From positions 62,001 to 126,000 of the forward strand of contig JAIUML010000007.1 in the NCBI GenBank assembly GCA_022565595.1: a DNA stretch of 64,000 nt, read 5' to 3'. The notes below the pieces were generated by a model. That model had not been told where the DNA came from. It searched no databases and saw only the letters and a program-made list of their open reading frames with translations. Every line of letters begins with the position of its first letter. Position 1 is the first letter of the stretch. This DNA is from Saccharospirillum sp. Its GTDB lineage: Bacteria > Pseudomonadota > Gammaproteobacteria > Pseudomonadales > Natronospirillaceae. Both the position numbers and the translations under genes were made by a program. Below, in pieces: positions 1,949-62,683 of this stretch.

Positions 1949-2117
1949 ATGGCCCGCGACGGCTACCGGGTAGGCTTATTCGGGGTCGCCGTGTACCCAT
2001 CCATGGGGGCTTGACGGCAGCATCCGACCGCCATGGATGGCGGAAGTGCAGCTTTTGCAGGAGCAAAAAGCTGCCAGGCTGCCGACACCCCCGAATAAGC
2101 CTACCCGGCATCCGTCG
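1949..2117. repeat. Nested intergenic palindrome, copy 1 (hpd-fahA gap)
   Basis: The 355-base gap between fahA and hpd is mostly this element. Outer arms CCGGGTAGGCTTATTCGGGG (1966-1985) and its exact reverse complement (2089-2108) are flanked by GACGG/CCGTC (1958-1962, 2112-2116). Inside are the CCATCCATG / CCATGGATGG pair, GGCAGC/GCTGCC, and a central hairpin AGCTTTTGC-AGGA-GCAAAAAGCT. It is a member of a repeat family found in other gaps of this window. No open reading frame of note lies inside. The remaining bases (2118-2256) hold the probable hpd 3' end and nothing else recognisable. Confidence 0.9.
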
Positions 2118-2256
2118 CTTGAATTGCACCAATTCCAAAACTTGAGCAATTAAGTGATGGATATAGCAGAGTAGTTCATTTGTCCTGCCATGTGCCCTGT
2201 TGAAGTCTAATCAGATTGCTGTAGCCCAACTCATTCAAACAGCAAACCTCGAGTCA

Positions 2257-3345
2257 TCAATCTCCACTGATCACACCACGGCGAATCTGGTCTTCTTCGA
2301 TTGATTCAAACAGGGCCTTGAAGTTGCCTTCGCCAAAACCTTCATTGCCTTTGCGTTGAATGATTTCAAAAAAGACCGGGCCAATGACCGTCTTGGTGAA
2401 AATTTGCAGCAAGATACCCGAGTCTTCGGGGGCGCCGTCAATCAGGATGCGCAGGTCCTTGAGGGCCTCTACATCTTCGCTGTGCCCCGGCACTCGATCC
2501 TTGATTTTCTCGTAATAGGTATCGGGTGTTGGCATGAACGACATGCCGCGTTCACGCATGGTGCGCACGGTCTCGTAGATGTTCGAAGTCGACATGGCAA
2601 TGTGCTGAATGCCCTCGCCCTTGTACTCGCGCAGGTATTCTTCGATCTGCGATTTGTCGTCACTGGATTCGTTGATGGGAATGCGGATTTTACCGCAGGG
2701 CGAGGTCATGGCCTTGCTGACCAGGCCGGTCAGTTTGCCTTCGATATCGAAGTAGCGAATTTCGCGGAAGTTACCAATTTTTTCATAGAAGCTGGCCCAT
2801 ACGCCCATGTTGCCACGCTGGACGTTGTGGGTCAGGTGGTCGACGTATTCGAGGCCGACGCTGGCTTCCTTCACGGCTTCTTGCCAGCCGTCGTAGAATT
2901 CGAAGTCGATGTCATAGATTGAGCTGTTGCCATAGCGGTCGACAAAGTAGAGCGTGCTTTCACCAATGCCAAAGACGCCAGGAATGTTCAGTTCCATGGG
3001 GCCGATTTTGCCCTGAAAGGGCTTGGCGCCATTGGCCATGGCGTGTTCCATGGCTTTGGCGGCATTACCGACGCGCCACGCCATGCCATTAACGCTGGCG
3101 CCATGCTGGTGCGCAAACTGTTCGGCATGTGAGTTGGGTTCGGCGTTGACGACGAAGTTGATGTCACCCTGCCGATACAACCAAACAGCCTTGTTCCGGT
3201 GTTTGGCAACTTCAGCAAAGCCCAGCCCTTTGAACAGTTCTTTAAGGTCTTCAATGCCTTTGGCATCGGGTGCGGTGTATTCAACAAACTCGAAGCCATC
3301 GGTAGCAAGCGGGTTCTCTACGCCCTGCATTTGCAGATCGGTCAT
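2257..3345 (-). CDS. hpd: 4-hydroxyphenylpyruvate dioxygenase
   Basis: 362 residues, normal for the bacterial enzyme. It converts 4-hydroxyphenylpyruvate to homogentisate with non-haem iron and O2. Two vicinal-oxygen-chelate domains are visible. The C-terminal one carries the iron ligands: His in GLEYVDHLTHNV, His in GEGIQHIAMST and Glu in GPVFFEIIQRKG near the C-terminus, with GFGEGNFKALFESIE after it. The gene stands alone between two palindromic repeats, in the same direction as fahA and tyrR. Homogentisate dioxygenase, the next enzyme, is not in the window. Confidence 0.97.
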   Translation of the reverse strand: MTDLQMQGVENPLATDGFEFVEYTAPDAKGIEDLKELFKGLGFAEVAKHRNKAVWLYRQGDINFVVNAEPNSHAEQFAHQHGASVNGMAWRVGNAAKAMEHAMANGAKPFQGKIGPMELNIPGVFGIGESTLYFVDRYGNSSIYDIDFEFYDGWQEAVKEASVGLEYVDHLTHNVQRGNMGVWASFYEKIGNFREIRYFDIEGKLTGLVSKAMTSPCGKIRIPINESSDDKSQIEEYLREYKGEGIQHIAMSTSNIYETVRTMRERGMSFMPTPDTYYEKIKDRVPGHSEDVEALKDLRILIDGAPEDSGILLQIFTKTVIGPVFFEIIQRKGNEGFGEGNFKALFESIEEDQIRRGVISGD

Positions 3346-3492
3346 AATGCTGTCTCCACTGTCGATTGTTATAACGGCGCCACCCCATTCAGGCTGGTCG
3401 CTCTTCTATCCAATGGATAACACTTTGAACCGAATCACTGCGCTGCGCCAGAGCCCACCCTAAAGCTCTTTATGTCGCGCAGACCCCGTTTT

Positions 3493-3518
3493 CGTAAACC
3501 CCTCGGGACAAGTTTACA
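3493..3518. promoter_or_regulatory. Inverted repeat upstream of hpd, possible TyrR/PhhR-type operator
   Basis: CGTAAA at 3493-3498 and TTTACA at 3513-3518 form an inverted pair about 150 bases upstream of the hpd start. The half-sites match the known TyrR box arms (TGTAAA/TTTACA), but the spacer is 14 bases rather than the canonical 6. A tyrR/phhR gene lies about 470 bases away. Assignment as an operator is an inference only. Confidence 0.3.
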
Positions 3519-3636
3519 CTTGGCTTTTTCTTCATATTAATCAACAGGTTACAACCATAAATCAATGATAATTCGGCTTATTGGTATCGAAAAGATGACA
3601 GCCTGTAGCTTGGCTTTGTTTTATAGCATATACCCG

Positions 3637-3957
3637 TGAGGGGTGCCGGTAAGGCCCTAGAAGGGACGCCGTAAATAGATATCAGCCCCATCCATGGGGC
3701 TGCCCCTTCGGGCTCGCTACGCTCATGCCAAAACGCTCCCGGCGTTTTGGTCCCTGTAGGCTCGACTGTCCACATCCGACCGCCATGGATGGCAGAAGTG
3801 CCGTTTTTGCAGGAGCAAAAAACGGCCATGTGGACAGACGCCCTTCCAGGAGCTGACCACACCCCTTGCTAGTCAAATGAGTCATCTGCTGATGGTAACT
3901 GATCCAGGCACCCCGCCCGACCCTGCAGAGGCACCACCGGTAGCCGACGCGGGCCAT
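3637..3957. repeat. Composite intergenic palindrome, copy 2 (tyrR-hpd gap)
   Basis: This fills much of the 640-base gap between tyrR and hpd. It contains both core modules of the family: GCCCCATCCATGGGGC then TTCGGGCTCGCTACGCTCATG and the hairpin CCAAAACGC-TCCCG-GCGTTTTGG (about 3686-3757), followed by CCATGGATGGC and the hairpin CCGTTTTTGC-AGGA-GCAAAAAACGG (about 3781-3835), bracketed by TGTCCAC/GTGGACA. A separate right-end fragment with CTGCAGAGGCACCACCGG and TAGCCGACGCGGGCC lies at about 3905-3957. The bases nearer hpd (3346-3636) hold the promoter region and the TGTAAA-type inverted repeat. Confidence 0.85.
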
Positions 3958-3988
3958 AGACCGCTATATGCGGACCAAGGAACGCCGT

Positions 3989-5545
3989 TTACCTTGAGTG
4001 CTTGCCAATGTTGTATTCACGAAGCTTGTTGGCCACCGCTGTGTGGGAGACGCCGAGTTTTTTGCCGAGTTGGCGGCTGCTTGGGTAAGCCGGATAGAGC
4101 CGACGAAGCAGCTCTGACTCGAAGCGTTTCATGGCTTCTTCCAGGGTGCCTTCGAAGTTTTCGTCGACATAGCCCCAGCCACTGCTGAAGCTTGGCAATT
4201 GCAGGTGCTCTGGTTCGAGTTCGTCGCCTTCGGCCAGGGAGACCGCTCGTAACAGGGAGTTTTCCATTTGCCGGACGTTGCCCGGCCAGGGGTATTGCTG
4301 TAGGGCGTTCTGACAGGCTTTGGAGAGGCGAATGCGACGTCGCTGTGGCTCGGCGAAACGGGCGATAAAACGTTCCGCCATCGGTAGCACATCGGATTTG
4401 CGTTCCCGCAAGGGGGGAATGTGTAGGGTGAGAACATTCAAGCGGTAGAAGAGGTCCTCTCTGAAGGTGCCGTCCTGGCAGAGATTGAGCAAATCTTTTT
4501 GGGTAGAGCAGATGATGCGTACATCGGACTTGTACTCTTTCTCGTCACCTACTCTTCGATAGGTTCCGTCCTGCAGCAAGCGTAGAAACTTCGATTGCAG
4601 TATTTTCGACATATCGCCAATTTCGTCAAGGAAAACTGTGCCACCTTCGGCCAGCTCCAGTATGCCTTTCTTGGCCTGGGTGGCGCCTTCGAAAGCGCCT
4701 GCCGCGTAACCGAAAAGTTCGCTTTCGGCGACGTTATCGGGCAAGGCAGCGCAGTTCAGAACCAGGAAGGGTTTGTCCTTGCGCAGACTGTGTTGGTGGC
4801 AGGATTTTGCCAGCAACTCTTTGCCTGTGCCGGTTTCGCCGGTAATCAACAATGGAGCGTCGAGGCCTGACATGCGTTTGGCCTGGCGAATGACTTTCTT
4901 CATGGCCTGGCTCTCGGCAATCAGCATGTCGAATTCGCCGGTTTGCTGATGGTAAGCGGTCATCTGGCGGCCAAGTCGCTCAGGCGACTTGAACGTAATA
5001 ACAGCGCCAGCGAAGAGGTCTTCAACGCCGTTTTCACTTTCGTCCGGCACCTGTATCGGGTAGACGTCGGCAAGAAAGGTGCGGCCTTTCAACTGCATAT
5101 GAGATGACTGAGTCCTTGGGTGGTCGTCACTGAGCCATTTATTGAAATTGAATCCCTTTACCCAGTTTTTTAGCAGTTTGTTTTTCACCTCGTCTTCCGG
5201 CAACTGCAGGATATCGAGTGCTGCTTCATTGGCGATGACCACATAACCTTTGCTGTCGATGGAAACGACCGGCTCGGGCAAGGTTTTCAGCAAGGTATGC
5301 AATTCCTGCTGTTCGCGCTCAATGGGCATGTAAGGGATAAGGGAGACATCGTGAATACCCGGTATCAAACGAATTTCCGGCATCAAATGCTGGAACTCAT
5401 CGAATTCGACGGTGGGGAAGTTCAGGAATATCTGCCCATTGGGGTCTATCTCTATGCCTCTGAGGTCAATCTTGTGGTTGACCAGTATGTCCAATACCTC
5501 GGCGCAAATACCGAGTCTCTCTTCACAGAGTATTTTTAAGCGCAT
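3989..5545 (-). CDS. tyrR: TyrR/PhhR-family aromatic amino acid regulator
   Basis: 518 residues with the family order: ACT domain (about 1-75), PAS domain (about 78-150), AAA+ sigma-54-type ATPase domain (about 205-430, Walker A GETGTGKE at 236-243) and a short C-terminal helix-turn-helix (SSRQLGKKLGVSHTAVANKL). The loop where true sigma-54 activators have GAFTGA reads GAFEGA (283-288), as I recall for Pseudomonas PhhR-type proteins, so it could act at sigma-70 promoters. In Pseudomonas, PhhR activates phhAB and hpd, and its position between phhB and hpd supports that role. It would bind aromatic amino acids in the cytosol. Confidence 0.93.
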   Translation of the reverse strand: MRLKILCEERLGICAEVLDILVNHKIDLRGIEIDPNGQIFLNFPTVEFDEFQHLMPEIRLIPGIHDVSLIPYMPIEREQQELHTLLKTLPEPVVSIDSKGYVVIANEAALDILQLPEDEVKNKLLKNWVKGFNFNKWLSDDHPRTQSSHMQLKGRTFLADVYPIQVPDESENGVEDLFAGAVITFKSPERLGRQMTAYHQQTGEFDMLIAESQAMKKVIRQAKRMSGLDAPLLITGETGTGKELLAKSCHQHSLRKDKPFLVLNCAALPDNVAESELFGYAAGAFEGATQAKKGILELAEGGTVFLDEIGDMSKILQSKFLRLLQDGTYRRVGDEKEYKSDVRIICSTQKDLLNLCQDGTFREDLFYRLNVLTLHIPPLRERKSDVLPMAERFIARFAEPQRRRIRLSKACQNALQQYPWPGNVRQMENSLLRAVSLAEGDELEPEHLQLPSFSSGWGYVDENFEGTLEEAMKRFESELLRRLYPAYPSSRQLGKKLGVSHTAVANKLREYNIGKHSR

Positions 5546-5645
5546 TCTTCTCTCCGTTGCCGTCTCTCTGTACGGATACCTTGCCGGAGAGGTAAGCTGC
5601 CGCAGAATGGGCAGCTTGTCAACTGTTCTTTACAGCTTGTTTCGA

Positions 5646-5984
5646 TCAGCCCTCAAACAGACGATCTGTTTTGGCCGCGCAGATAAAGTCGTTGCGATGT
5701 AACCCGCCGATCTTGTGCGTCCACCAGCGAACCGTTGTCTTGCCCCACTCGGTTTTTATTTCCGGGTGATGGCCTTCTGACTCTGCCAGTTCACCGACCT
5801 TGTTGGTAAAGGCCAGTGCCTGACGGAAGGTCTTGAAGGTAAAAACGCGCTCGAGCTGCATCACGCTGCCTTCGCTGATGGGCGTCCAGTCCGGTATTTC
5901 CCGGATCAACTGGGCCAGTTCATCGTCACTGACCTGGGGTGCGCCGGCTCGGCAGGCTTCACAGCCTTCTGTTGCCAATGTCAT
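5646..5984 (-). CDS. phhB: Pterin-4a-carbinolamine dehydratase
   Basis: 112 residues. It dehydrates the 4a-hydroxy-pterin formed by phenylalanine hydroxylase so the cofactor can be recycled. The family signature [19 protein letters not shown] is present, with the active-site His pair and a later His in WTHKIGG. The start ATG at 5984 has a GAGGAG ribosome site and lies 14 bases after the phhA stop, giving a phhA-phhB operon. The N-terminal CEACRAGAP segment is typical of Pseudomonas-type PhhB. Confidence 0.95.
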
Positions 5985-5998
5985 GGTGGTGTCGCTCC

Positions 5999-6799
5999 TC
6001 AGCCGTTCGCGGCTTTTTTCTGTTCAAATTTTGGCGGAAACAGGCCCAGTTTTTTGGCTTCCTGTACAGCGCCCATGATGTCCAGCTTGGCAATGTCAAA
6101 GAGTTGGTCAACGCTGTCCAGGCAATAGTAAATGGGCTGCATGATGTCGATTCGGTAAGGCGTGCGCAGCACACTCACCAAATCAAAAGGCTGACGCTCG
6201 GGGATATCGCTGTTGAAGGCATAGTCCGTCTCGCCAGGGGAAGACAAAATACCGCCACCGTAAATGCCTCTTTCTGAACCCTTCTGGAGCAAACCAAACT
6301 CAACGGTAAACCAGTAAAGGCGCGCCAGATAGACTCTGTCTTCTTTTGAGGCGTTCAAGCCGAGTTCACCATAAAGCTGAGTAAAATCAGCAAAGGCCTG
6401 GTGAGTCAGCATAGGGCAATGGCCAAAAATCTCGTGAAAGATGTCCGGCTCCTGCAAATAGTCCAGCTCTTCGCGGCTGCGAATGAAGGTGGCCACCGGG
6501 AATTGGCGGTTGGCCAACAAACGGAAGAATTCCGAGAAGTCAATCAAGGCAGGCACAGCGGCAGTTTGCCACCCGGTGCTTTGCAACAACACCTTGTCGA
6601 CTTCCGCCAGTTGCGGAATGCGTTCCCTGGGCAAATCGAGATGCGCCAGTCCCTCGATGTAATTGTCGCAGGCTTTACCCTGCAGAGCCGGTAATTGACG
6701 TTCGATCAGTGTTTGCCAGATCGCGTTCTCGTCATCAGACCAGCACACAAAACCCTCTTTATCAGGCTGGTGCGCAACGTACTTGCTGCTCTTGGCCAT
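5999..6799 (-). CDS. phhA: Phenylalanine 4-hydroxylase
   Basis: 266 residues from the ATG at 6799 ([16 protein letters not shown]). An upstream in-frame extension to 6859 is possible but unlike the family. It hydroxylates phenylalanine to tyrosine using a reduced pterin, Fe(II) and O2. The iron ligands are visible: two His in [11 protein letters not shown] and the Glu in [10 protein letters not shown]. There is no N-terminal regulatory domain, as expected for the bacterial enzyme. It is first in the phhA-phhB operon, with tyrR next downstream. Confidence 0.96.
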
Positions 6800-6874
6800 G
6801 TTGATCACCCTATGTCGTTGTATTTGTTGATGGGCTATTTCTACCCTCAGACCAAACAAAACAACAGGGCGAGT

Positions 6875-6889
6875 GCTGCGAAAAGCAGC
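6875..6889 (-). terminator. Weak hairpin downstream of the glycosyltransferase gene
   Basis: GCTGC-GAAAA-GCAGC forms a 5-bp stem between the glycosyltransferase stop (6938) and phhA. The U-rich stretch that would follow on the minus strand is displaced by about 10 bases, so termination is only possible, not shown. Confidence 0.22.
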
Positions 6890-6937
6890 CCTTGATATGT
6901 CAACACAGACGGACGCTTCTGTAAAAGAGGCCGACCG

Positions 6938-8014
6938 TCAAATGGAGAGGGTATGGTAATTGCTTGTAGGAACAGTAGAGGGTGAGTGTTGATAGTCCAC
7001 CGAGCTCCAGAGGCGCTGCACCAGGCGCTCGATGGGCTCCTCACGACCGGAAGTCAGCCAGTAGGCCAGGTTTTGCGCCACATTCGGATAGGTCACTTGC
7101 ACTGGCGTCGAAGCATGCAGGAAGGCTTCGACTTTGGCACGATCGAGATCCATCATGCTTGCGCCCAGCCCCAACTCGGTCAACGCCAGAGCATTGGAAA
7201 CCTGCTCCATTTGACCCAGAACGGGCTTGACCAACAACCCTTTGCCCAATGCGAGGGCTTCCGAGGCCAGTTCGAAGCCGGCATTGCAGATGACGCGGCT
7301 GGATCGAGCCAAAGAGGCCTTGAAACCATCGCGGCTGAACCCCTTGACCTCGACATTGGCGTGGTGCCCCTGTGCTACCTGGTCACTGTGTACGATAAAT
7401 CGCCAGTCCTTGATGGATTGAAGCAGGGTCATCACAGCCTGAGCGTCTTCGAAGGGAAGGTAAACCAGTATTGTCTGCGGCTCACCGCTCGAGAGCACCT
7501 CAACCGGCTCAATAATGGGAGGTAAAATAGTGGCGTCGTAATGATGCCAATGCACTCCCAGACCAAGCGACACCGGCGCAAACCAGCGCATCAACGCTTC
7601 CGACACAGGGTTGTGGCCCGCCTTGTGAACATCATGAGCGAAGGCATACTGATGGCCAATGCCGATGCATTCCCTACCCACTCGACGTGCCGCCCAAGCC
7701 ACTACGGGCTCATAATCGGAAAGAATCAAATCGTAAGACTCGAGGTCCAGTTGCCGAATATCGCGCCACAACTGCAACAGTGACGCTTGCTTGAGGGTAC
7801 TGAATGCATCAATACGGCCTTTGCGAACAGTAAAGGTCAACCCTTTCAAAACACGAAAATCACCAAAGCCATTCATATCAAAGAGTTTGTCGGCTGGTCG
7901 CCCTGAAAACACCCAGTCCACTTCAGCTCCGGTTTGGCGCAACGCTTCGGCCATGACCCTTGCTCGGGTTATATGGCCGTTACCTGTCCCCTGCACTCCG
8001 TAGAGTATTCTCAA
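6938..8014 (-). CDS. MJ1255-type glycosyltransferase, GT-B fold
   Basis: 358 residues. It begins MRILYGVQGTGNGHITRAR, the N-terminal glycine-rich signature of the MJ1255/MurG-like GT-B glycosyltransferase family (GTGNGHITRA loop). A C-terminal nucleotide-sugar region has RSSRVICNAGFELASEALALGKG, the usual donor-binding NAGxxxxxE pattern. Substrate is unknown. It is coupled by ATGA to the PAP2 phosphatase gene upstream. A lipid-linked acceptor handled by both proteins is a plausible inference. Confidence 0.8.
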   Translation of the reverse strand: MRILYGVQGTGNGHITRARVMAEALRQTGAEVDWVFSGRPADKLFDMNGFGDFRVLKGLTFTVRKGRIDAFSTLKQASLLQLWRDIRQLDLESYDLILSDYEPVVAWAARRVGRECIGIGHQYAFAHDVHKAGHNPVSEALMRWFAPVSLGLGVHWHHYDATILPPIIEPVEVLSSGEPQTILVYLPFEDAQAVMTLLQSIKDWRFIVHSDQVAQGHHANVEVKGFSRDGFKASLARSSRVICNAGFELASEALALGKGLLVKPVLGQMEQVSNALALTELGLGASMMDLDRAKVEAFLHASTPVQVTYPNVAQNLAYWLTSGREEPIERLVQRLWSSVDYQHSPSTVPTSNYHTLSI

Positions 8015-8538
8015 AGCGCCAACCCTCCCAGTGCCCAGAAAGCAACCAGACTGCCCAGAGAGGCCCCCACCAGTGTATCGGTCGGAAAATGAACACCAAG
8101 AAAGATCCTGGACAGAGCCACTCCGCAGGACCAGATCAGAAGAAAGGGAAACAAGGCAGGAAACTGACTGGATACCAGCACCATGAACAGGAAGGCAGCC
8201 GAGGTATGACCGGAAGGAAAGCTGAACTTGTCTGATGGCACAATAAAGCTGGTAAAGGCTTCAAGCGCATCCTGAGGCCGATTGCGCCGGCAGGTGTTCT
8301 TCATGATCAGATAGAGAGCACGCTCTACAAAAAACGCCATAAAAGCGAGCTTTGCAAAGGCGACACCCGTTTGCCCGCCGGTCAAAGCGAAGGCAACAAA
8401 GAAGATCAAGTAAAGCCAACCATCGGCTGAGCGGGACACCGCTCGGCTCAGTGCTGTAAGTTGTTCACGCCGACGCCGTGCCATGCACCAGTTGAATATC
8501 TGAACATCAAATTCCTGGATGGGTGCCAGCCATTTCAT
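8011..8538 (-). CDS. PAP2-family membrane phosphatase
   Basis: 175 residues from the ATG at 8538 (MKWLAPIQEF), chosen because GGAGA lies just upstream. A longer in-frame start at 8595 lacks a clear site. All three PAP2 motifs are present: KNTCRRNRP, PSGHTSA and SRIFLGVHFPTD, with the catalytic His residues in the second and third. Several hydrophobic segments make it an inner-membrane protein. The family dephosphorylates undecaprenyl pyrophosphate, phosphatidate or phosphatidylglycerophosphate; which one cannot be told. Its stop overlaps the start of the glycosyltransferase gene. Confidence 0.85.
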   Translation of the reverse strand: MKWLAPIQEFDVQIFNWCMARRRREQLTALSRAVSRSADGWLYLIFFVAFALTGGQTGVAFAKLAFMAFFVERALYLIMKNTCRRNRPQDALEAFTSFIVPSDKFSFPSGHTSAAFLFMVLVSSQFPALFPFLLIWSCGVALSRIFLGVHFPTDTLVGASLGSLVAFWALGGLAL

Positions 8539-8660
8539 CGCCTGTCTCCTCTGCCTGAATTGCCTGTGTCGAGTGTTCGACCCTTCAGGCTTCATTATTC
8601 AGGCAGGGATGTCAGTTAGCTGACAGTTCCATTAACTTTTGATGACAACATCGTTCTGGG

Positions 8661-9110
8661 TCAGTGGTTCTCGAGCGCTTTTCTGGGGTCCGAAGGCTTG
8701 AACAAGGAGGTTTCAAAGGCGCGTTGCAGTTGATCGAGCCGAGCCGCCAATGCTTGTCGGGTATAGGCTTTGGGCGGCACTGCACCCCACACCGGGTTTG
8801 GCCAGGCGGCGTCGGTCTTCTTGCGCAATACATGGTGAATGTGCAGTTGCGGCACCACATTGCCGAGTGCAGCAATGTTCATTTTATCGCCATCATAGGT
8901 TTTCATTAAGCGTTCGGCGACAAAGCTGCTCTCCCAGATCAATTGTTCCTGGTCGTCTTCATCCAGTTGAAAGACTTCACTGATGCCCTCTCGCTGCGGC
9001 ACCAGGATCAACCAGGGGTAATTGGCGTCTTTCATCAACAGTATCCGACTCAGCATCAGGCAGCCGATGTCTACACAATCGTTCTTCAATCGATAATCTA
9101 GCTCAAACAT
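8661..9110 (-). CDS. HIT-family hydrolase
   Basis: 149 residues. The histidine triad appears as PQLHIHHVLRK, the variant (H-x-H-H) that I recall for the Pseudomonas-type HIT subfamily. It is preceded by LNIAALGNV-like sequence (MNIAALGNVV) and followed by DAAWPNPVWG, also subfamily hallmarks. HIT proteins hydrolyse or transfer nucleotides (AMP-lysine, ADP-sugar and similar). The substrate of this branch is not known. Single gene, divergent from the GNAT-like gene at 9195. Confidence 0.85.
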   Translation of the reverse strand: MFELDYRLKNDCVDIGCLMLSRILLMKDANYPWLILVPQREGISEVFQLDEDDQEQLIWESSFVAERLMKTYDGDKMNIAALGNVVPQLHIHHVLRKKTDAAWPNPVWGAVPPKAYTRQALAARLDQLQRAFETSLFKPSDPRKALENH

Positions 9111-9194
9111 GGTTACTCTCCTTTCACATATGATTGTACCCTATCCTCATCTCCATCGTATAACCCTGACCTGCTCTCTGGATGTTAAATAATC

Positions 9195-10307
9195 ATGATC
9201 GAATGGCAGTCCCATTGGCCCGAACGTATCACAGCCCAAGCGGTTGCCGGCAACCCTTTCTGCCGCGATACCTTTTTGCGCAGCCTGGAACAGACGGGCG
9301 TGTGCACAGCGGACTCAGGCTGGCAACCTCACCACCTCTACTGGCGCGATGCTGATCAACGCATTCAAGTGCCCTGCTACATCAAGGGGCATTCCTGGGG
9401 CGAGTACGTATTCGACTGGGCATGGGCCAACGCTTACGAACAGCACGGCTTGCAGTACTACCCGAAACTGCTGTGCGCTATCCCCTACACCCCGTCAACA
9501 GGCCCTCGTTTTCTCGGCAATGCGACAGACAACCAGGCGGGCTACCTGGCTCAGGCACTCCAGGACGAAGTAGTCCGACTGAAGCTGAGCGGTTGCCATC
9601 TGTTGTTTCCGGACGCTCTCACCGCTCGCCAATGGCGGCCTTTGAACTGGGTGGAGCGAACCGATGTACAGTTTCACTGGTACAACCCGGGCTATAGAGA
9701 TTTCTCCGACTTCATGGATAGATTTGCTTCGCGGAAACGGAAGAATGTGCGCAAGGAGCGACAATCCGTTGCCGACCAGGGGCTAGAACTGCGTTGTTTT
9801 GAAAACCAGTCGATTACCTCAGAACTGCTCCGCCAATTCTACGTTTTTTACCACGCCACCTACCTCAAGCGCGGTCGCAAGGGCTACCTGAACCTGATGT
9901 TTTTTGAACAATTATTGGCGCAACAGCCCGAAAGTCTGGTCCTGTTCATGGCCTACCAGGGAAGCGAAGCCGTCGCAGGAGCACTCTGTCTGCGCGATAA
10001 CACCACCCTCTACGGCCGCTACTGGGGCAGTGTCGAGACCTTCGACAACCTCCATTTCGAAACCTGTTACTACCAGGGCATCGACTACTGCATCCGCAAC
10101 GGCCTGAAACGTTTCGACCCCGGCACCCAGGGCGAACACAAGGTCGCCCGTGGCTTCGAACCCACCTTCACCCACTCCTTCCACTGGCTCGCCCAGCCCG
10201 ACTTCCAGCAAGCCATACGGCGCTATTGCCACGAGGAGGCCGAAATGGTCACCCAATACCACCAACAGATGACCGAGGCCTTGCCGTTCAGGAAGACAGA
10301 GGTTTAG
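9195..10307 (+). CDS. GNAT-like acyltransferase, DUF482 (peptidogalycan biosynthesis/FemAB-like)
   Basis: 370 residues. Recognised by overall layout: an N-terminal segment with WGEYVFDWAWANAYEQHGLQYYPKLLCAIPYTP, a middle FASRKRKNVRKER basic stretch, and a C-terminal DPGTQGEHKVARGFEP motif. These features are characteristic of the DUF482 family, two tandem GNAT-type lobes related to FemAB. A function in aminoacyl transfer to a cell-wall or lipid acceptor has been suggested for the family but is not established. No Shine-Dalgarno is evident at the ATG. A palindromic repeat lies immediately downstream. Confidence 0.8.
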   Translation: MIEWQSHWPERITAQAVAGNPFCRDTFLRSLEQTGVCTADSGWQPHHLYWRDADQRIQVPCYIKGHSWGEYVFDWAWANAYEQHGLQYYPKLLCAIPYTPSTGPRFLGNATDNQAGYLAQALQDEVVRLKLSGCHLLFPDALTARQWRPLNWVERTDVQFHWYNPGYRDFSDFMDRFASRKRKNVRKERQSVADQGLELRCFENQSITSELLRQFYVFYHATYLKRGRKGYLNLMFFEQLLAQQPESLVLFMAYQGSEAVAGALCLRDNTTLYGRYWGSVETFDNLHFETCYYQGIDYCIRNGLKRFDPGTQGEHKVARGFEPTFTHSFHWLAQPDFQQAIRRYCHEEAEMVTQYHQQMTEALPFRKTEV

Positions 10308-10377
10308 GGTAGACTTATATCCAAAGATCAATATTTAAACCAAAAAGCTCAAACCCAAGGTCTGGTTTCTGAGCGGA

Positions 10378-10546
10378 GGCCCGCGGCGGCTACCGGAGGT
10401 GCCTCTGCAGGGTCGGCGTGGATCCATCCATGGAGCCTAGACCGCAGCATCCGACGGCCATGGATGGCCTAGTGCCGCTTTTGCAGGAGCAAAAAAGCGG
10501 CCATGCTGCGGACTCCCCTGCAGAGGCACCTCCGGCATCCGCCGCT
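10378..10546. repeat. Nested intergenic palindrome, copy 3 (GNAT-gloA gap)
   Basis: The 300-base gap is dominated by this element. Outer arms CCGGAGGTGCCTCTGCAGGG (10393-10412) and its exact reverse complement (10516-10535) are flanked by GGCGG/CCGCC. Inside are CCATCCATGG / CCATGGATGG, CCGCAGC/GCTGCGG and the hairpin CCGCTTTTGC-AGGA-GCAAAAAAGCGG. The organisation is the same as in copy 1, but the arm sequence is entirely different. Confidence 0.92.
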
Positions 10547-10607
10547 CAACGCTTACCTGACTCGAGAATTGAGTTCCAAACCCTATTGAAATCACTGGAG
10601 AGCACCA

Positions 10608-11048
10608 ATGAAATACCTACACACCATGGTCCGAGTAGCGGACCTCGACGCCTCTTTGCATTTTTATTGTGACCTGCTGGGTCTGGTCGAAGTCAACCGC
10701 AAGGAGAGTGAAAAAGGCCGTTTTACCCTGGTCTTTCTGGCGGCACCCGGCGATGAAGACAGAGCGCGAGAGCATGGGGCACCCATGGTCGAATTGACCT
10801 ACAACTGGGACCCTGAAAACTACAGTGGCGGTCGCAATTTTGGCCATCTGGCTTATCAGGTTGACGACATCTACGCGCTCTGCCAACACCTCCAGGACAA
10901 TGGCGTCGTCATCAATCGCCCTCCGCGCGATGGCCATATGGCCTTTGTGCGCAGCCCGGACAACATTTCGATCGAGCTGTTGCAAAAGGGCCCTGCCCTG
11001 CCTGCCCAGGAGCCATGGGCGTCGATGGAGAACAGTGGGGAGTGGTAA
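10608..11048 (+). CDS. gloA: Glyoxalase I / lactoylglutathione lyase
   Basis: 146 residues, VOC fold. It isomerises the methylglyoxal-glutathione hemithioacetal to S-lactoylglutathione. The four metal ligands are visible: His in YLHTMVRV, Glu in PMVELTYNW, His in [10 protein letters not shown] and Glu in ISIELLQKG. The Ni-type short form lacks the long eukaryotic insertion. GGAGAG precedes the ATG. It is about 70 bases upstream of proS with no terminator seen between them. Confidence 0.93.
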
Positions 11049-11120
11049 GCCACTACACCTTCAATCGAAATCCCCCTACAATAAGGCCCCTTTGCCTTTT
11101 CCCAACCAACAGGACCCGCT

Positions 11121-12845
11121 ATGCGCGCCAGTAAGTACCTCATTGCTACCGTCAAGGAAACCCCAACCGACGCCGTGGTTGTCAGCCACAAGCTGATGCT
11201 GCGCGCCGGCATGATCCGCAAGCTGGCTTCCGGCCTGTACAGCTGGCTACCGACGGGTTTGCGCGTTTTGAGAAAGGTGGAAACCATTGTTCGTGAAGAG
11301 ATGGACCGTTCAGGCGCCCAGGAAATCAATATGCCTTGCGTCCAGCCCGCCGAGTTGTGGCAGGAAAGCGGCCGCTTTGACGATATGGGCCCGCTGATGA
11401 TGCACATGCAGGATCGGCATCAGCGCGATTTTGTTTTTGGTCCGACTCACGAAGAAGTGGTCACCGACATCGCACGTAACGAGTTGACCAGTTACAAACA
11501 GTTGCCGGTCAATTTCTACCAGATTCAAACCAAGTTCCGTGACGAGTTTCGTCCGCGCTTTGGGGTGATGCGCGCGCGCGAATTCATCATGAAAGATGCC
11601 TACTCCTTTCATGTTGACGCCGAGTCACTACAGGATGAATACGACAATATGTACCGCACCTATTGCCGTATATTCGATCGTCTCGGGCTCGACTACCGCC
11701 CGGTTCTGGCAGACTCGGGCGCCATGGGTGGCGCCGCGTCGCACGAATTCCAGGTACTGGCCGACTCCGGCGAGGACTACATCGCTTTCTCCGACAGCAG
11801 CGACTTCGCCGCCAATATTGAAATGGCCGAAGCCCTTGCACCTGCCATTGCGCGCGCCGAACCAGGGGAGCTGCTAAAACTGGTCGATACACCGGAGACA
11901 AAAACCATCGAACAACTGGTTGAGAAGTTCCAACTGCCGATCGAGAAAACCATCAAGACGCTGATTGTCGAAGCAGAAGATGACATCGAGGGTGGTCTGG
12001 TAGCGCTACTGGTGCGCGGCGACCATACGCTGAATGAAATCAAGGCTGAAAAACTGCCCGAAGTGAAAGCGCCACTGACCATGGCCAGTGAAGAGAAAAT
12101 ACGGGCTGCTATCGGTGCAGGCCCGGGTTCACTGGGCCCGGTCAAGTTGCCCATCCCTATGGTTATCGATCGCGCAGTCAGTGTGATGTCGGATTTTGGC
12201 GCCGGTGCCAACGAGGACGACAAACACTGGTTTGGCATCAACTGGGAGCGCGATGTCGCTCTGCCCAGGGTGGCAGACATTCGCAACGTCGTCGAAGGCG
12301 ACCCCAGCCCTTGCGGTAAGGGCAAGCTGTTGATCAAAAAAGGCATAGAAGTCGGTCATGTTTTTCAACTGGGCAATAAATACGCCAAGGCCTTGAACGC
12401 CACCGTGCTGGACCAGAATGGCAAAGCACAGACCATGGTCATGGGCTGTTATGGCATTGGTGTCAGCCGGATTGTGGCCGCTGCCATTGAGCAGAACCAC
12501 GATGAGAATGGCATTATCTGGCCAGCCGCTCTGGCGCCTTTCCAGGTAGGCATCGTTCCGCTGAACGCTCACAAGGCACCGGAAGTCATGGAAGTCGCTG
12601 AATCGCTTTACGAGCAATTGAGAGACGCTGGTATAGAGGTATTGCTGGACGACCGAGACAAGAAAACCAGCCCGGGTGTGAAGTTTGCCGACATGGAATT
12701 GATTGGCATTCCGCACCGCATTGTCGTCAGCGATCGGGGCCTGGCCGAGGGTCAACTGGAGTACCGACAGCGCGGCCAGGAGGAAAAATCCGAAGTCGCC
12801 GTTACCGAAGTACTCGCCCTGCTGAAAGGCAAGCTCGGTAAGTAA
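11121..12845 (+). CDS. proS: Prolyl-tRNA synthetase
   Basis: 574 residues, the bacterial long form. Class II catalytic domain (about 1-220) with motif 1, motif 2 ([21 protein letters not shown]) and motif 3 in [11 protein letters not shown] (about 442-452). Between them is the YbaK-like editing insertion (about 225-400), which hydrolyses mischarged Ala-tRNA(Pro). The anticodon-binding domain is at the C-terminus. It lies in the cytosol and charges tRNA(Pro). Confidence 0.97.
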
Positions 12846-12900
12846 AGTTTAACCAAAGCGGTTTTACAGCCCGGCCTCTGCAGTCTACGCTAACCATTAA

Positions 12901-12930
12901 CCCATCAGAACAGCGCCGTTCTGCTGGGTT
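12901..12930 (+). terminator. Possible hairpin after proS
   Basis: CAGAAC-AGCGCC-GTTCTG (12906-12923), extended by CCCA/TGGG with small bulges, lies 60 bases after the proS stop and just before the CBS gene. There is no run of T, so it may be a weak terminator or an RNA-stabilising stem. Confidence 0.35.
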
Positions 12931-12961
12931 AACTGTCGTCCCAGAAGGAGGTCGTCTATCC

Positions 12962-13384
12962 ATGAAACAGGAACCGCTTACCGTTGGCGATTGTATGACG
13001 CCGGCCAAAGCCCTTGTCCCCGCTAAAGCCTCGGTTACTGAAGCCGTCCAGATTCTGCTGAAAAATCGCCTCTTCGGCAGCCCTGTGGTTGATGAATACC
13101 ACAACCTGGTTGGCTACATATCAGAGCAGGACTGCATCAAACACCTGCTGTCCGACAGCTACTACCGGCAAAATTCAGTACAGGTCACCGATCTGATGAG
13201 AACAGATGTTCTGACCGTCTCTGCAGACGACAGCATCATCGATCTTGCCGAAAAAATGACCGGTAACAAGCCGAAAAAGTACCCTGTTATAGACGAAAAA
13301 CGCGTCGTCGGTGAAATTACCCGAACTGAAGTGTTGGCAGCTCTGCTGAAATTGCGCTCCTGGCACCAGAAGCGGTCCGCCTGA
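12962..13384 (+). CDS. Tandem CBS-domain protein
   Basis: 140 residues made of a Bateman pair: CBS 1 (about 8-65, with VGDCMTPAKALVPAKASV and LVGYISEQDCI) and CBS 2 (about 73-132, with VTDLMRTDVLTVSADDSI and VVGEITRTEVL). Such stand-alone modules bind adenosyl ligands (AMP, ATP, SAM), but the partner is unknown. A strong AAGGAGG ribosome site sits before the ATG. The spacing and possible hairpin after proS suggest a separate or partly separate transcript. Confidence 0.88.
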   Translation: MKQEPLTVGDCMTPAKALVPAKASVTEAVQILLKNRLFGSPVVDEYHNLVGYISEQDCIKHLLSDSYYRQNSVQVTDLMRTDVLTVSADDSIIDLAEKMTGNKPKKYPVIDEKRVVGEITRTEVLAALLKLRSWHQKRSA

Positions 13385-13435
13385 AACGACCCGGGATCGA
13401 AAAAGAACGGAACTCTGGCCTGGCCGCATAACCGA

Positions 13436-13458
13436 GGTTGGTTGAACTTCGACCAACC
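13436..13458. repeat. Near-perfect 23-base palindrome after the CBS gene
   Basis: GGTTGGT and ACCAACC flank TGAACTTCG, giving an almost complete dyad downstream of the CBS gene and upstream of ydiJ. It lacks a following T run, so it may be a hairpin of the CBS transcript or a protein site. Confidence 0.3.
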
Positions 13459-13576
13459 CCGGCCCTGAATCAGCCTTCCGCACAACGGTGCGTTTTGTTT
13501 TCAAGCGACATTCACCCTCGAATTCCCTGGCACTTTCGTTAGAATACACCCTCCTTGAATCAGACACGCTGAGCCC

Positions 13577-16654: not shown

Positions 16655-16757
16655 ATAAAATCTATGCGGTGCATTTACTGCATCATCATGGTTTTTCCGG
16701 CATAATTTGAAGTCACTAGTGAGTTTGACGCGCAAGTTTCGGAGTAGTCAGGGGCTA

Positions 16758-16943
16758 TGGCCCGCGCCGGCTACCGGCGGTGCCTCTGCAGGGTCGGGCG
16801 GAATGCCGCCCACTTAATCCATCCATGGAGCCTAGACCGCAGCATCCGACGGCCATGGATGGCCTAGTGCCGCCTTTACAGGAGCAAAAAAGGTGGCCAT
16901 GCTGCTGACTCCCCTGCTGAGGCACCACCGGCATCCGCCGCTC
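16758..16943. repeat. Nested intergenic palindrome, copy 4 (ydiJ-DAHP synthase gap)
   Basis: This fills the centre of the 359-base gap. Arms CCGGCGGTGCCTCTGCAGGG (16774-16793) and CCCTGCTGAGGCACCACCGG (16912-16931) pair with two mismatches. The central parts CCATCCATGG / CCATGGATGG are kept, and the hairpin CCGCCTTTAC-AGGA-GCAAAAAAGGTGG is slightly decayed. An extra 22-base stretch with GGGCGG-AAT-GCCGCCC is inserted in the left half. The rest of the gap holds the presumed promoter of the next gene. Confidence 0.9.
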
Positions 16944-17013
16944 TAATTGCAACACATCCGAAATTCAAGCCAATACACTCTGTATTCACCGATCGCTCAG
17001 GTAGCATTTATTT

Positions 17014-32216: not shown

Positions 32217-32245
32217 TTGGCTCGCGTCGGCTACCAGTGGTACAG
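32217..32245. repeat. Fragment of the intergenic palindrome family (upp promoter side)
   Basis: GGCTCGCGTCGGCTACCAGTGGTAC resembles the outer left end of the family (GGCCCGCG.CGGCTACCGG). No partner arm remains. It lies in the 99 bases between mksB and upp. Confidence 0.5.
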
Positions 32246-38231: not shown

Positions 38232-38275
38232 CCGTGGCCCGCACCGGCTACCGGGGCTCGAATCTTGCGAGCCCT
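38232..38275. repeat. Fragment of the intergenic palindrome family (mksF-bcp gap)
   Basis: GTGGCCCGCACCGGCTACCG at the left matches the family outer end, followed by GGGCTCG-AATCTT-GCGAGCCC, a small new hairpin in place of the core. It may be a deletion remnant. Confidence 0.6.
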
Positions 38276-39761: not shown

Positions 39762-39792
39762 AACTCAAGGTTCGAAGTTGGCACACACTCAA

Positions 39793-39910
39793 GCGTCGGA
39801 TGCCGGTGGTACCTCAGCAGGGGAGTCCGCAGCATGGATGCTGCGGTCTAGGCTCCAAGGACGGATCCACGCCGACCCTGCAGAGGGACCACCGGTAGCC
39901 GACGCGGACC
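39793..39910. repeat. Intergenic palindrome, copy 5, core-deleted (folX-ansA gap)
   Basis: Arms CCGGTGGTACCTCAGCAGGG (39803-39822) and CCCTGCAGAGGGACCACCGG (39876-39895), imperfectly complementary. The CCATGGATGG/TTTTGC core is missing; instead CCGCAGC-ATG-GATGCTGCGG makes a short hairpin. Reads in the opposite orientation to copies 1, 3 and 4. It takes up nearly half of the 267-base gap. Confidence 0.85.
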
Positions 39911-40028
39911 ATTGCCACTGTATGACCCTCTACAAGTGTTTACTATGACTCGGCATTGGCAATTGCATAGCGTCTGCAAGAATGCTTTTATACCGCCCTT
40001 CGAGTGAACCTCTTGCACAGGCGGGTAG

Positions 40029-49808: not shown

Positions 49809-49835
49809 GGCACCACCGGTAGCCGTCACGGACCG
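49809..49835. repeat. Fragment of the intergenic palindrome family
   Basis: GGCACCACCGGTAGCCGTCACGG is like the right end of copies 2 and 5 (CCACCGGTAGCCGACGCGG). No left arm is seen nearby. It lies in the 340-base gap before the nas operon, whose rest holds the sigma-54 promoter and leader. Confidence 0.6.
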
Positions 49836-49971
49836 TAGCCACAAAGATTACACCAAGCACTGCTCTCAAGTAGTTCACACACCCGACTTCCTGCCCACCC
49901 ATGGTGCACACTCAAACCTCTTAATCCGCCCAGGAAGGCTGAAACCCTCAAGATAGAGCCATTTCCAAAAG

Positions 49972-49990: not shown

Positions 49991-50002
49991 ATAGAACTCA
50001 GT

Positions 50003-50103: not shown

Positions 50104-50132
50104 GCCTGCAGGAAAGTGGAGACAAGCGTCAG

Positions 50133-51335: not shown

Positions 51336-51344
51336 GGAGCGATT

Positions 51345-53873: not shown

Positions 53874-53884
53874 GGAGACCACCG

Positions 53885-54232: not shown

Positions 54233-54239
54233 GGCAACC

Positions 54240-56867: not shown

Positions 56868-56958
56868 TGCCGAGAGAGTCGTGGGTGTCGCTTGCTGACA
56901 ATACCATGCCTGCCTTGATGCTACACTGAGGCTCTCCATTGCAGAATATCTGGTACCC

Positions 56959-58475: not shown

Positions 58476-58601
58476 ACGACCTCAGTGGTTATTGCTGCTC
58501 GCAGTTTAGTCACTTTGTTCTTTTTGTAACAGAAAAATATATACTGAAAAAATATTGACATTTTATCGGGTGCATCAGAGACTGAATCCGACCTCAAAAA
58601 A

Positions 58602-58670
58602 CAGGGACCAGAACGCCGTGAGCGTTCTGGCTTGAGCGAAGCGAACCCAAAGGGTCAGCGCCATGAATGG
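58602..58670. repeat. Half-element of the palindrome family (module B, inverted)
   Basis: CCAGAACGC-CGTGA-GCGTTCTGG, then TGAGCGAAGCGAACC and CCATGAATGG, is the reverse complement of the second core module in copies 2 and 6. It lies between the rpiR gene and the FGase gene, and the FGase start codon falls at its edge. Confidence 0.85.
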
Positions 58671-59553
58671 TGCTGATATGGTTTTGTCGATGCGAACGGC
58701 GAATAACAAAGAACCAATAAACTGCCGAGAACAGTCAACTAAGTCGCTGTGGCGAGGCATCGTCAGCTTCTGGGGCCAGGAAGGTCAGCGGCTGAAAGCA
58801 CCTGTGGAGCATCAACCCTGTGGCCTTGTGCTGGTCTGTGAACACGCCTCCAACCGCTTTGTAACGCCCTGGGGTACACTCGGGCTTGATACTGAAACCA
58901 CCACCAGCCACATCGCCTGGGATCTCGGTGCCTTAAGGCTGGCCAAAAAACTGGCGGCCAATCTCGCACCGATAACAGGCGGAACCGTGCTGATTCATGC
59001 ACCACTATCTAGGCTGATTTACGATCTGAATCGCTCACCTGATCAGCAGGATGCCATGCCTGATCAATCGGAAGCCTATGCCATACCGGGCAACAAATCG
59101 CTCGGCTTGACTCAACGCCTGGAAAGAACCCGGTCGCTGTACCTGCCTTTTCACACCAGTGTCCACGAAGAAATCTGTAGAATCCTGGCGCAAGGCAAAA
59201 GACCACTCCTGCTAACCATTCATTCTTTTACACCGGTATACAACGGCAAACAACGCGACGTCGAGTTCGGGGTGATTCACGATACAGACGACACCCTGGC
59301 CAAAGCTATCGTAACCGCCGCCAGTCGTTCAAACCTGGATACTCGACTGAACGAACCCTACTCCGCCAGGGATGGCGTCACCCATACTCTGAAGCTGCAT
59401 GCCACTCCTTACAACCTGGCACACGCCATGCTAGAGATTCGCAACGATCTGCTGACCAACTCACAGACAGAGGCAAAGGTAACCAGGCAACTGACCGAGA
59501 TTCTAACCACTGCCTTTCAATCCCCGGGGGTTCCGTCATGCCTCGCTTCCTGA
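58663..59553 (+). CDS. N-formylglutamate amidohydrolase-like protein
   Basis: 296 residues as called. The FGase core starts near residue 48 (CGLVLVCEHASNRF with the zinc His) and continues with LIHAPLSRLIYDLNRSPDQ, HTSVHEEI and LLTIHSFTPVYNGKQRDVEFGVI. The first about 45 residues are not family-like and begin inside a repeat, so the real start may be further in (58678, 58690 or later). The family hydrolyses N-formylglutamate in histidine degradation, but no hut genes are here. Overlaps dctQ by 16 bases. Confidence 0.82.
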   Translation: MNGADMVLSMRTANNKEPINCREQSTKSLWRGIVSFWGQEGQRLKAPVEHQPCGLVLVCEHASNRFVTPWGTLGLDTETTTSHIAWDLGALRLAKKLAANLAPITGGTVLIHAPLSRLIYDLNRSPDQQDAMPDQSEAYAIPGNKSLGLTQRLERTRSLYLPFHTSVHEEICRILAQGKRPLLLTIHSFTPVYNGKQRDVEFGVIHDTDDTLAKAIVTAASRSNLDTRLNEPYSARDGVTHTLKLHATPYNLAHAMLEIRNDLLTNSQTEAKVTRQLTEILTTAFQSPGVPSCLAS

Positions 59554-61372: not shown

Positions 61373-61423
61373 CTGGGGCTGCATTGGTGCAGCCTCTACC
61401 TCAACTGGAAGGAGGGAAATACC

Positions 61424-62458
61424 ATGACATCTAGACGCAAGTTTTTAGCCTCAAGTGCTCTGGTTGGCGCCGCCGCAATGACGGCACCAAAAACTCTGGC
61501 GCAGTCGACCATCCGCTGGCGACTGCAGACCTACGCGGGCTCTGCGCTCGGCGCTCAGGTGGTCAAGCCAGCGGTGGATATGTTTAATGCCATCGCCGGT
61601 GAGGAGATGCAGATCGACCTCTATTACGCCGATCAGTTGGTCCCCACTGAAGAACTGTTCCAGGCCATGCAACGTGGCACCATCGATGCCGTGCAGTCGG
61701 ACGACGATTCGATGATGTCGCCAACGGATGTAACGGTTTTTGGTGGCTATTTCCCCTTCGCCAGCCGTTACTCACTCGATGTACCGGCGTTGTTCAACGA
61801 TTGGGGGCTTAATGAAATATGGGCTGAGCAGTATGCCGCTGTTGGTGTAAAACACATCTCCGCCGGTGCCTGGGATCCCTGCCATTTCATCACCACGTCA
61901 CCCATTACCAGTCTGGAGCAGCTGCGCGGCAAGCGGGTATTTACTTTCCCGACGGCCGGTCGCTTCCTGAATCAGTTTGGTGTTGTACCGGTGACGGTTC
62001 CCTGGGAAGATGTGGAGATCGCGTTGCAGACCCGCGAAATAGACGGCGTGGCCTGGTGTGGTATTACTGAGGCGTACGAAGTAGGCTGGGCAGACATTTG
62101 CTCGCATTTCCTGACCAACAACATTTCAGGCGCCTGGATTGGCCATTTCTTTGCCAATATGGAACGCTGGAATGAGGTGCCTCCCCACTTGCAAACGCTG
62201 ATGGCAGCCTGTTTCGAGCAATCCCATTACTATCGTCAACACTGGTATTGGGCAGGCGAAGCTCGACTGCGTACCGAGGGTACCAAGCTCGAACTGACGT
62301 CCATTCCGGATGCCGAATGGGCCCGTGTCGAAAACGCTGCTCGAGATTTCTGGGACGACATCGCTGAGGAATCCGACACCGCCGCAAGAGTGGTGCAAAT
62401 ATTCAAGGACTACAATGCAGCCATGGATAGAGCTGGGCGTCCTTACCGTTATAGCTAA
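61424..62458 (+). CDS. TRAP transporter substrate-binding protein (DctP type), Tat-exported
   Basis: 344 residues. Twin-Arg signal SRRKFLASSALVGAAAM with AQS cleavage region. The mature part is TRAP-T SBP: GSALGAQVVKPAVDMFNAIAG, LVPTEELFQAMQRGTIDAVQS, LRGKRVFTFPTAGRFLNQFG, VEIALQTREIDGVAWCGITEAYEVG. Arg in FTFPTAGR fits a carboxylate ligand. AAGGAGG site. The ligand is probably a carboxylate handled by FGase and the GS-like enzyme. Confidence 0.93.
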   Translation: MTSRRKFLASSALVGAAAMTAPKTLAQSTIRWRLQTYAGSALGAQVVKPAVDMFNAIAGEEMQIDLYYADQLVPTEELFQAMQRGTIDAVQSDDDSMMSPTDVTVFGGYFPFASRYSLDVPALFNDWGLNEIWAEQYAAVGVKHISAGAWDPCHFITTSPITSLEQLRGKRVFTFPTAGRFLNQFGVVPVTVPWEDVEIALQTREIDGVAWCGITEAYEVGWADICSHFLTNNISGAWIGHFFANMERWNEVPPHLQTLMAACFEQSHYYRQHWYWAGEARLRTEGTKLELTSIPDAEWARVENAARDFWDDIAEESDTAARVVQIFKDYNAAMDRAGRPYRYS

Positions 62459-62490
62459 AGACCCAAGAAAGCTGGGTAAAGCACGAAATT

Positions 62491-62683
62491 GTGGCCCGCG
62501 AAGGCTACCATGGACGCCTCTGAGGGGTCGGCGTTAACCCGTCCCTGGGGCCTAGGCCGCAGGGTATGAATCCCATCCATGGGATTCACCCTTCGGGCTC
62601 GCTCCGCTCATGCTAAAACGCTCCTGGCGTTTTAGTCCAGGCTGCGGACTCCCCCTCAGAGGCGTCCATGGCATCCGTCGCTC
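62491..62683. repeat. Intergenic palindrome, copy 6 (dctP-GS gap)
   Basis: Arms CCATGGACGCCTCTGAGGGG (62508-62527) and its exact reverse complement (62652-62671). The inner part has the second core module: CCCATCCATGGG, TTCGGGCTCGCTCCGCTCATG and the hairpin CTAAAACGC-TCCTG-GCGTTTTAG. The TTTTGC-AGGA-GCAAAA core is absent. Fills most of the 280-base gap. Confidence 0.92.

Follow-up and report, generated by a model that had tools for sequence, protein, structure and literature searches.

A dispersed palindromic element in the Saccharospirillum window

The 64,000-nt stretch of Saccharospirillum sp. contig JAIUML010000007.1 analysed here, the whole of which is referred to as the window, carries in its intergenic gaps six copies of a long palindromic element, together with half-arm remnants and a separate inner module (Table 1). 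A first-pass annotation of this DNA had listed six substantial copies and four fragments. All six copies were recovered at their positions; among the fragments, those at 32217, 38232 and 49809 are half-arms of the element sharing its outer end, whereas that at 58602 is a separate module without this end. The end motif GGNYCGCRNCGGCTACC (at most one mismatch) is found at nine sites of the window, where shuffled sequence gives an expectation of 0.01, and the nine sites correspond to the six copies and the half-arms at 32219, 38236 and 49818. The ends as first drawn were too short for one subfamily, in which weak conservation extends approximately 36 bp outward on each side. A covariance model (R1) was built from 29 sequences, 28 being Saccharospirillum copies and one originating from a sister genus. 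R1 scores five of the six window copies at E values of 1e-22 to 1e-37, with the copy at 39785 (L018) a member of the training set and the other four lying outside it, while the compound copy at 3637-3957 is matched weakly. No gathering-level Rfam match was found in the window. Throughout, '+' denotes the TCC-loop strand on top, with the GGA-loop strand below.

Table 1 Copies, remnants and parts of the palindromic element in the window. P1, outer stem; P2 and P3, inner hairpins
Feature	Position	Strand	Basis
Copy 1, long form, module A in the loop of the third helix (P3)	1948..2126	+	R1 121.1 bits, E 2.1e-30
Copy 2, compound: '+' copy whose P2 holds module B (3680-3753) and whose P3 holds module A	3637..3957	.	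By eye; repeats D5/D6/I2; R1 E 0.015-0.05
Inverted left half-arm closing compound copy 2	about 3907-3957	-	By eye
Copy 3, long form, reference copy	10375..10553	+	R1 130.6 bits, E 5.8e-33; orthologous gap too short for it in 5/5 relatives
Copy 3, left arm of P1, pairs with 10516-10545	10383..10412	+	Inverted repeat I10, 93% complementary
Copy 3, hairpin P2, conserved bulge	10415..10437	+	Covariation; loop counts
Copy 3, P2 loop: CATCCATG on top, CATGGATG (CANGGANG) on opposite strand	10425-10432	+	Coordinates checked
Copy 3, hairpin P3, TCC loop broken by module A	10442..10511	+	
Module A in copy 3 P3 loop: two small hairpins, GGA loops on top strand	10453..10502	+	
Copy 3, right arm of P1	10516..10545	+	Inverted repeat I10
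Copy 4, long form, module A and extra hairpin (GGGCGG..CCGCCC) ahead of P2	16756..16949	+	R1 91.4 bits, E 2.3e-22
Left half-arm remnant	32219..32235	+	End motif, 0 mismatches; no R1 match
Left half-arm remnant	38236..38252	+	End motif, 0 mismatches; no R1 match
Copy 5, short form of the 119-bp type, no inner modules; GGA-loop strand is window + strand	39785..39913	-	R1 145.1 bits, E 6.8e-37 (R1 training member)
Left half-arm remnant	49809..49842	-	85% identity to 39885-39918 (D7); end motif, 1 mismatch
Lone diverged module B, limits approximate	58602..58690	-	By eye against 3680-3753
Copy 6, long form, module B in P3 loop	62490..62689	+	R1 111.3 bits, E 9.6e-28; repeat D6

The element is abundant beyond the window. 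A BLAST search with the copy at 10378-10546 yielded 67 matching segments of the host genome, and R1 detected at least 135 copies at E ≤ 0.001, a lower bound because the best 150 of 1943 candidates were scored (at most 150 were scored per genome throughout). The five congeners compared contain at least 144 (G001), at least 150 (G003), at least 150 (G004), 16 (G002) and 6 (G005) copies. None of the 135 host copies lies inside a gene called by a simple codon-usage gene caller, bearing out the intergenic placement in both orientations that had been described from the window. Removal of six antisense rows and one duplicate from 150 rows left 143 distinct host copies. Among these, all 31 close pairs (<400 bp) are ordered '+ then -' with a spacing of 25-171 bp, the pair members diverging from each other when read on the GGA strand. 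This order is common, not absolute, in other genera, where '+-' (L225, L206, L240), '--' (L262, L199) and '++' (L203) arrangements were found.

The element is a three-way junction

The element is a three-way junction in which two hairpins (P2 and P3) sit on a long outer stem (P1). Its length ranges from approximately 119 to 200 bp, with a short form of about 119 bp and longer forms bearing added hairpins. P1 is approximately 30 bp long with a conserved internal mismatch (CTA/CAT), while P2 contains a GTRAA-type bulge. The sequence of P1 varies from copy to copy with the pairing retained: in an alignment of 29 short copies, both-side changes occur in 27 of 41 pairs and 94.5% of cells are paired, a result equalled by none of 500 shuffles, and sliding the pairing partners lowers the paired cells to 32-48%. 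In some relatives (L035, L039, L045) the outer stems are unrelated in sequence yet paired. Across genera, a model of the head alone (R2; 44 sequences, 24 pairs) gave paired cells, double-change cells and a covariation score each beyond 500 of 500 shuffles.

Two kinds of inner module were seen nested in copies of the element. Module A is present in 13 of 143 host copies. Module B comprises a TCCA-loop hairpin, a TTCGGG stretch and a TCC-loop hairpin, and was seen at 3680-3753, 62565-62638 and 58602-58690; it is nested in P3 of five and in P2 of two of the 143 copies, and at 58602 it stands alone. Module B could be a palindromic repeat in its own right. By eye, both modules also bear GGA or AGGA loops.

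The head is shared with the Yersinia repeat YPAL

YPAL, also named RU-2, is a Yersinia palindromic sequence of approximately 167-168 bp (PMC2759123, Delihas 2007; PMC2229807), and its copy number in individual Yersinia genomes ranges from 2 to 144 (PMC2847712). On the basis of alignment and model matches, the head of the Saccharospirillum element is homologous to that of YPAL/RU-2, while the arms differ. The published RU-2 sequence aligns through the head with 43 other heads. R1, trained without any Yersinia sequence, matches copies from Y. similis and Y. proxima at E values of 3e-10 and 9e-9, and R2 matches the same copies, both part of its training set, at 8e-20 and 3e-18. The family had not been recognised in the first pass; through this homologous core it is in part a described one, with different arms.

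The head extends well beyond these two genera. Named Gammaproteobacteria genomes contain at least 117 stretches that fit a search pattern for the junction (80 loci listed), with Stenotrophomonas, Idiomarina, Yersinia, Arenimonas, Methylotuvimicrobium, Ectothiorhodospira, Marinobacter and Pantoea among the genera represented. When these 80 loci and three viral ones were scored with R1, a match was found in 82 of the 83. R2 matches 52 of 276 sampled Gammaproteobacteria genomes, spread over 47 of 216 genera (host included). In a sample of the phylum, 25 of 299 genomes were matched, of which 24 belong to the Gammaproteobacteria and one, with a marginal score (E 3.8e-5), does not, the share of the 299 that falls outside the class not being given. 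The Rfam family Ysr224 (RF02770) matches two Yersinia copies with 126.5 and 94 bits (cut-off 70), and no gathering-level match to it was found in five loci outside Yersinia.

A single Saccharospirillum copy used as query had no match in plasmid and phage collections. For a Y. similis copy, matches were present in 27 records of plasmids and, among 5426 E. coli genomes, in 5. In the three plasmid and E. coli records opened, the YPAL-like copy looks like a passenger. It adjoins the same iron-containing alcohol dehydrogenase gene on an E. coli plasmid, on a Citrobacter plasmid and on an E. coli chromosome near insertion sequence (IS) elements (L402, L403, L404).

Literature searches yielded no name for the Gammaproteobacteria-wide family: six tested element strings gave no match in a text search, and the literature found (De Gregorio 2006 not covered) names YPAL, RU-2 and Ysr224, with none of it linking these to other genera or to CsrA.

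Strand asymmetry of the outer stem

A folded RNA tolerates G·U pairs and does not tolerate A·C. We counted, for P1 mismatches, which strand would carry the G·U. In the 143 host copies this was the GGA strand in 119 cases and the TCC strand in 26 (p 2e-15 if cells are independent), with 17 informative pairs favouring the GGA strand against 4 favouring the TCC strand. The same asymmetry is seen outside the genus. Filters on end distance and on the stem, together with de-duplication, reduced 89 pattern matches to 67 copies, and exclusion of Saccharospirillum left 56, for which the counts are 69 versus 23 in favour of the GGA strand (p 2e-6; 28 versus 4 copies). Adding the 11 Saccharospirillum copies back gives 96 versus 23, and leaving out both Saccharospirillum and Stenotrophomonas gives 55 versus 20 in 44 copies. 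For 25 model-selected loci, including one misplaced locus (L382) that was retained in the count, the ratio is 33 to 16 in the same direction. Predicted folding energies agree, the GGA strand being the more stable in 128 of 135 copies; for copy 5 the folding z is -7.58 on the window + strand and -4.30 on the - strand. Because the TCC strand was the one used to build R1, the model favours G·T over A·C there, and the wobble result thus runs counter to its bias. It is probably the GGA-loop strand that folds. Such strand-specific folding is supported and seems to be new, and it is quite likely that this strand acts as an RNA.

Both hairpin loops resemble CsrA-binding sites

On the GGA strand both hairpin loops read C-A-N-G-G-A-N-G, with both N variable, and fit CANGGANG. 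The CsrA/RsmA consensus, as given in PMC6692469, is (A/U)CANGGANG(U/A). In P2, 113 of the 143 host copies have the exact CNTCCNTG and 141 have TCC (GGA on the other strand) in the loop; in P3 the corresponding numbers are 72 for the exact 8-mer and 138. The P3 loop lay outside the search pattern, and in the 44-row cross-genus set it contains TCC in 44 of 44 rows and the exact 8-mer in 35. In copy 39785 the GGA starts of the two loops are 23 nt apart. Each of the six Saccharospirillum genomes encodes one CsrA gene.

The simplest reading would be that CsrA, as a dimer, is bound by the two loops of a transcribed copy. Judged from the loop motif, CsrA binding to the GGA strand is a real possibility that we put forward tentatively; the fit of the loops to the CsrA/RsmA consensus on this strand seems, in any case, not to have been described before. 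Small RNAs (sRNAs) of the CsrB/RsmZ type contain several hairpins with A(N)GGA loops and are genes with their own promoter and terminator. The present element resembles them in its GGA hairpin loops and differs in being a dispersed repeat, for which CsrA binding is predicted from the loops.

Orthologous gaps are filled and empty among relatives

Gene order across positions 1-20000 of the window is largely conserved in the five congeners, which allows orthologous gaps to be compared. The host gap holding copy 3 (10378) measures 300 bp, against 8, 8, 8, 32 and 40 bp for its counterparts in the five relatives. That of copy 4 (16758) is empty of copies in four of five, while the fifth holds its own, different pair. 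The gap of the copy at 3637 is comparable in three relatives, two of which have no copy there and the third (G004) another copy; the gap of the copy at 1949 could be measured in G003 only, where R1 finds no match. Conversely, at least four gaps (g4-g5, g5-g6, g11-g12 and g12-g13, compared by coordinates) carry copies in G003 or G004 and none in the host. The element is thus mobile, with orthologous gaps both filled and empty among six Saccharospirillum genomes. The relatives have diverged at species level, and for this reason no base-exact empty site is available. At g11-g12 of S. impatiens (L348), a pair is apparently reduced, by eye, to two fused outer ends, inverted with respect to Saccharospirillum sp. 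M30B14.

A stationary structured RNA or untranslated-region element, kept by host selection for mRNA stability, termination or sRNA function, is an improbable alternative. The Yersinia member is annotated as an sRNA and, in PMC9029176, is termed temperature-responsive. Two further observations favour this alternative: at one Stenotrophomonas locus the right-hand copy is present in six of six genomes, once with a different, still-paired stem and once without its head, and in two species of one other genus (L394, L395) a lone copy with a high score was found close to genes that by eye resemble purH and purD. Against a stationary role stand the host copies absent from relatives and vice versa (20 kb compared), the lack of gene-orientation preference, and a copy number that varies from 6 to at least 150 within one genus. 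At the same Stenotrophomonas locus the left-hand copy is mostly deleted in two genomes, and one genome could not be aligned on the left side. The losses look as if heads and copies go by slippage. In the two strains concerned (L353, L355) the deletions have similar right-hand breakpoints close to GCCCC; of one right-hand copy, the stem is all that is left.

The inverted pairs, high copy number and intergenic sites recall REP doublets, and movement as single-stranded DNA hairpins by a Y1 (HUH) transposase of the RAYT/TIRYT kind would equally fit the strand asymmetry, since a folded DNA strand would produce it too. There is a precedent in Stenotrophomonas, where a TIRYT gene is flanked by self-complementary terminal inverted repeats, according to Di Nocera 2013. 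This REP/BIME-like route is nonetheless quite unlikely here. None of the 27 Y1-transposase loci inspected in 17 genomes (out of 36 Y1 matches in all; approximately 1.5 kb of flank each) shows R1 similarity at E ≤ 0.1. The host's sole Y1 gene has unrelated, GGGTCAGAGTC-type inverted repeats, and there is no replication-strand bias along one 2.8-Mb contig (p 0.68 among the 42 matches listed). On either side of this Y1 gene (L099 1393-2198) lie 28-bp inverted repeats of the AATCAATAGGGTCAGAGTCATTGATTTT type, specific to it, and a very similar arrangement occurs in S. impatiens (L320).

Searches for an autonomous partner were likewise negative: open reading frames between outward-facing copies 1.2-3.5 kb apart (host, Methylotuvimicrobium and others) were ordinary by eye, other enzyme families not having been searched, and those around copies in low-copy genomes were ordinary by eye in the 11 of 33 loci read. 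For 90 'single' copies drawn from the list of 135 matches, some of which have weaker partners, no excess of direct repeats or shared substrings was found in flanks of 40 or 70 bp, the exact ends being uncertain, and inverted repeats marking dyad targets were not above chance in the flanks of these copies. The description of a non-autonomous palindromic element without transposase or target-site duplication, made from the window alone, fits the presence/absence pattern, the Y1 loci free of copies and the flanks.

A classical miniature inverted-repeat transposable element (MITE), which derives from a DDE insertion sequence by internal deletion, keeps the terminal inverted repeats and has a target duplication of fixed length, would also be non-autonomous, intergenic and palindromic, and weak ACTCAAG..CTTGAGT ends are present in one subfamily. 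It is a very unlikely explanation: the ends are not fixed across subfamilies, the interior is conserved instead of the ends (the reverse of a MITE), the flanks lack the direct-repeat excess, and no transposase was seen by eye between the outward-facing copies read. Equally improbable is that DNA-level templated repair between the arms, as opposed to selection on a folded strand, keeps them matched; nearly all arm changes in the 29 short copies are double and one-sided changes rare, as such repair would predict, yet it gives no reason for G·U to prevail on one of the strands (4.6:1 in the host, 3:1 outside the genus), nor leave the conserved internal mismatches (CTA/CAT) uncorrected.

A mobile YPAL-superfamily element with candidate CsrA-binding loops

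Taken together, the data likely reflect a non-autonomous, mobile, structured element of what we call the YPAL superfamily, after its Yersinia member, recognised in the form of one strand, most likely RNA, folded into a three-way junction with candidate CsrA-binding loops. Trans-acting machinery would copy the element into intergenic gaps, adjoining or within other palindromes, and insertion next to or inside palindromes would produce both the nested look and the one-orientation pairs. Nesting was seen by eye in Stenotrophomonas and in P2/P3 loops, and the element may prefer palindromic targets.

Several points weigh against this overall explanation. Ysr224, the annotated Yersinia sRNA, matches the TCC strand and not the GGA strand, which for Yersinia counts against the GGA strand as the folded one. 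The strand asymmetry is compatible with RNA and with a folded DNA strand alike, and as the copies are related the wobble counts are not independent events, so that the p-values are a guide only. Two of five covariation measures lie within the shuffles for the cross-genus alignment (both-side-change pairs 103/500; pair types 340/500). The exact 8-mer occurs in the P3 loop of just half of the host copies. The search pattern fixed the P2 loop, and its invariance in the cross-genus loci L196-L275 is therefore partly imposed; loop evidence free of the pattern comes for P2 from the host set and, more softly, from the model-selected set (22/25), and P3 is also free of it. The GGA loops of module A lie on the strand opposite to the GGA strand of the element. 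Finally, neighbouring genes favour neither strand: among the 135 host matches, co-directional contexts number 45 versus 43, the remainder being facing (20 and 16) or having one neighbour unknown (11). With no gene-orientation preference, mRNAs do not carry the GGA loops as a rule.

A bolder version of the proposal is that a Gammaproteobacteria-wide selfish element is a transcribed, CsrA-binding three-way-junction RNA, of which more than 100 dispersed copies per genome would provide CsrA sites and may titrate CsrA or extend its control to new genes, and which could move via RNA in a SINE-like manner. We regard this as speculative and rather doubtful as a whole. Movement through an RNA intermediate is conceivable because of the variable ends, the lack of a transposase among those searched for and the strand-specific folding, and is in itself quite unlikely.

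These results join a repeat known from Yersinia to a common Gammaproteobacteria family, with a fold and a probable folding strand. If the loops do bind CsrA, more than 100 mobile copies in one genome would tie a transposon-like spread to a global post-transcriptional regulator.

Comparison with known repeats

The likeness to YPAL/RU-2 extends from the homologous three-way-junction head to a similar length, an intergenic location, mobility according to published empty and filled sites, and the absence of a named transposase in the texts consulted. The outer arms, in contrast, are unrelated, and the one-orientation pairs and nested modules belong to the Saccharospirillum members. Target duplications of 3-26 bp are published for YPAL, whereas none was seen in the flanks of the 90 Saccharospirillum copies, the exact ends of which are uncertain. 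Ysr224 (RF02770) covers Yersinia copies only and is annotated on the TCC strand.

REP/BIME sequences (GTAG REPs, PMC3733652) are similarly intergenic palindromes with inverted pairs and high copy number; REPs, however, are hairpins of 20-40 bp, the GTAG kind being tied to Y1 transposases, whereas the present element is a three-way junction of approximately 120-200 bp without a linked transposase. ERIC/IRU (RU-1, 127 bp) is a further long intergenic palindrome of gammaproteobacteria, and differs in that the RU-1-type sequence printed in PMC2759123 has, by eye, no such head.

Two minor observations concern other repeats. On the opposite strand, the outer left arm of the window copies includes GTAG (CCGGTAGCCG), the tag of GTAG REPs, which may be a coincidence. 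In Methylotuvimicrobium (L270 3166-3544), the translations FALSLSKGEW and FDRLRANGK suggest another repeat family.

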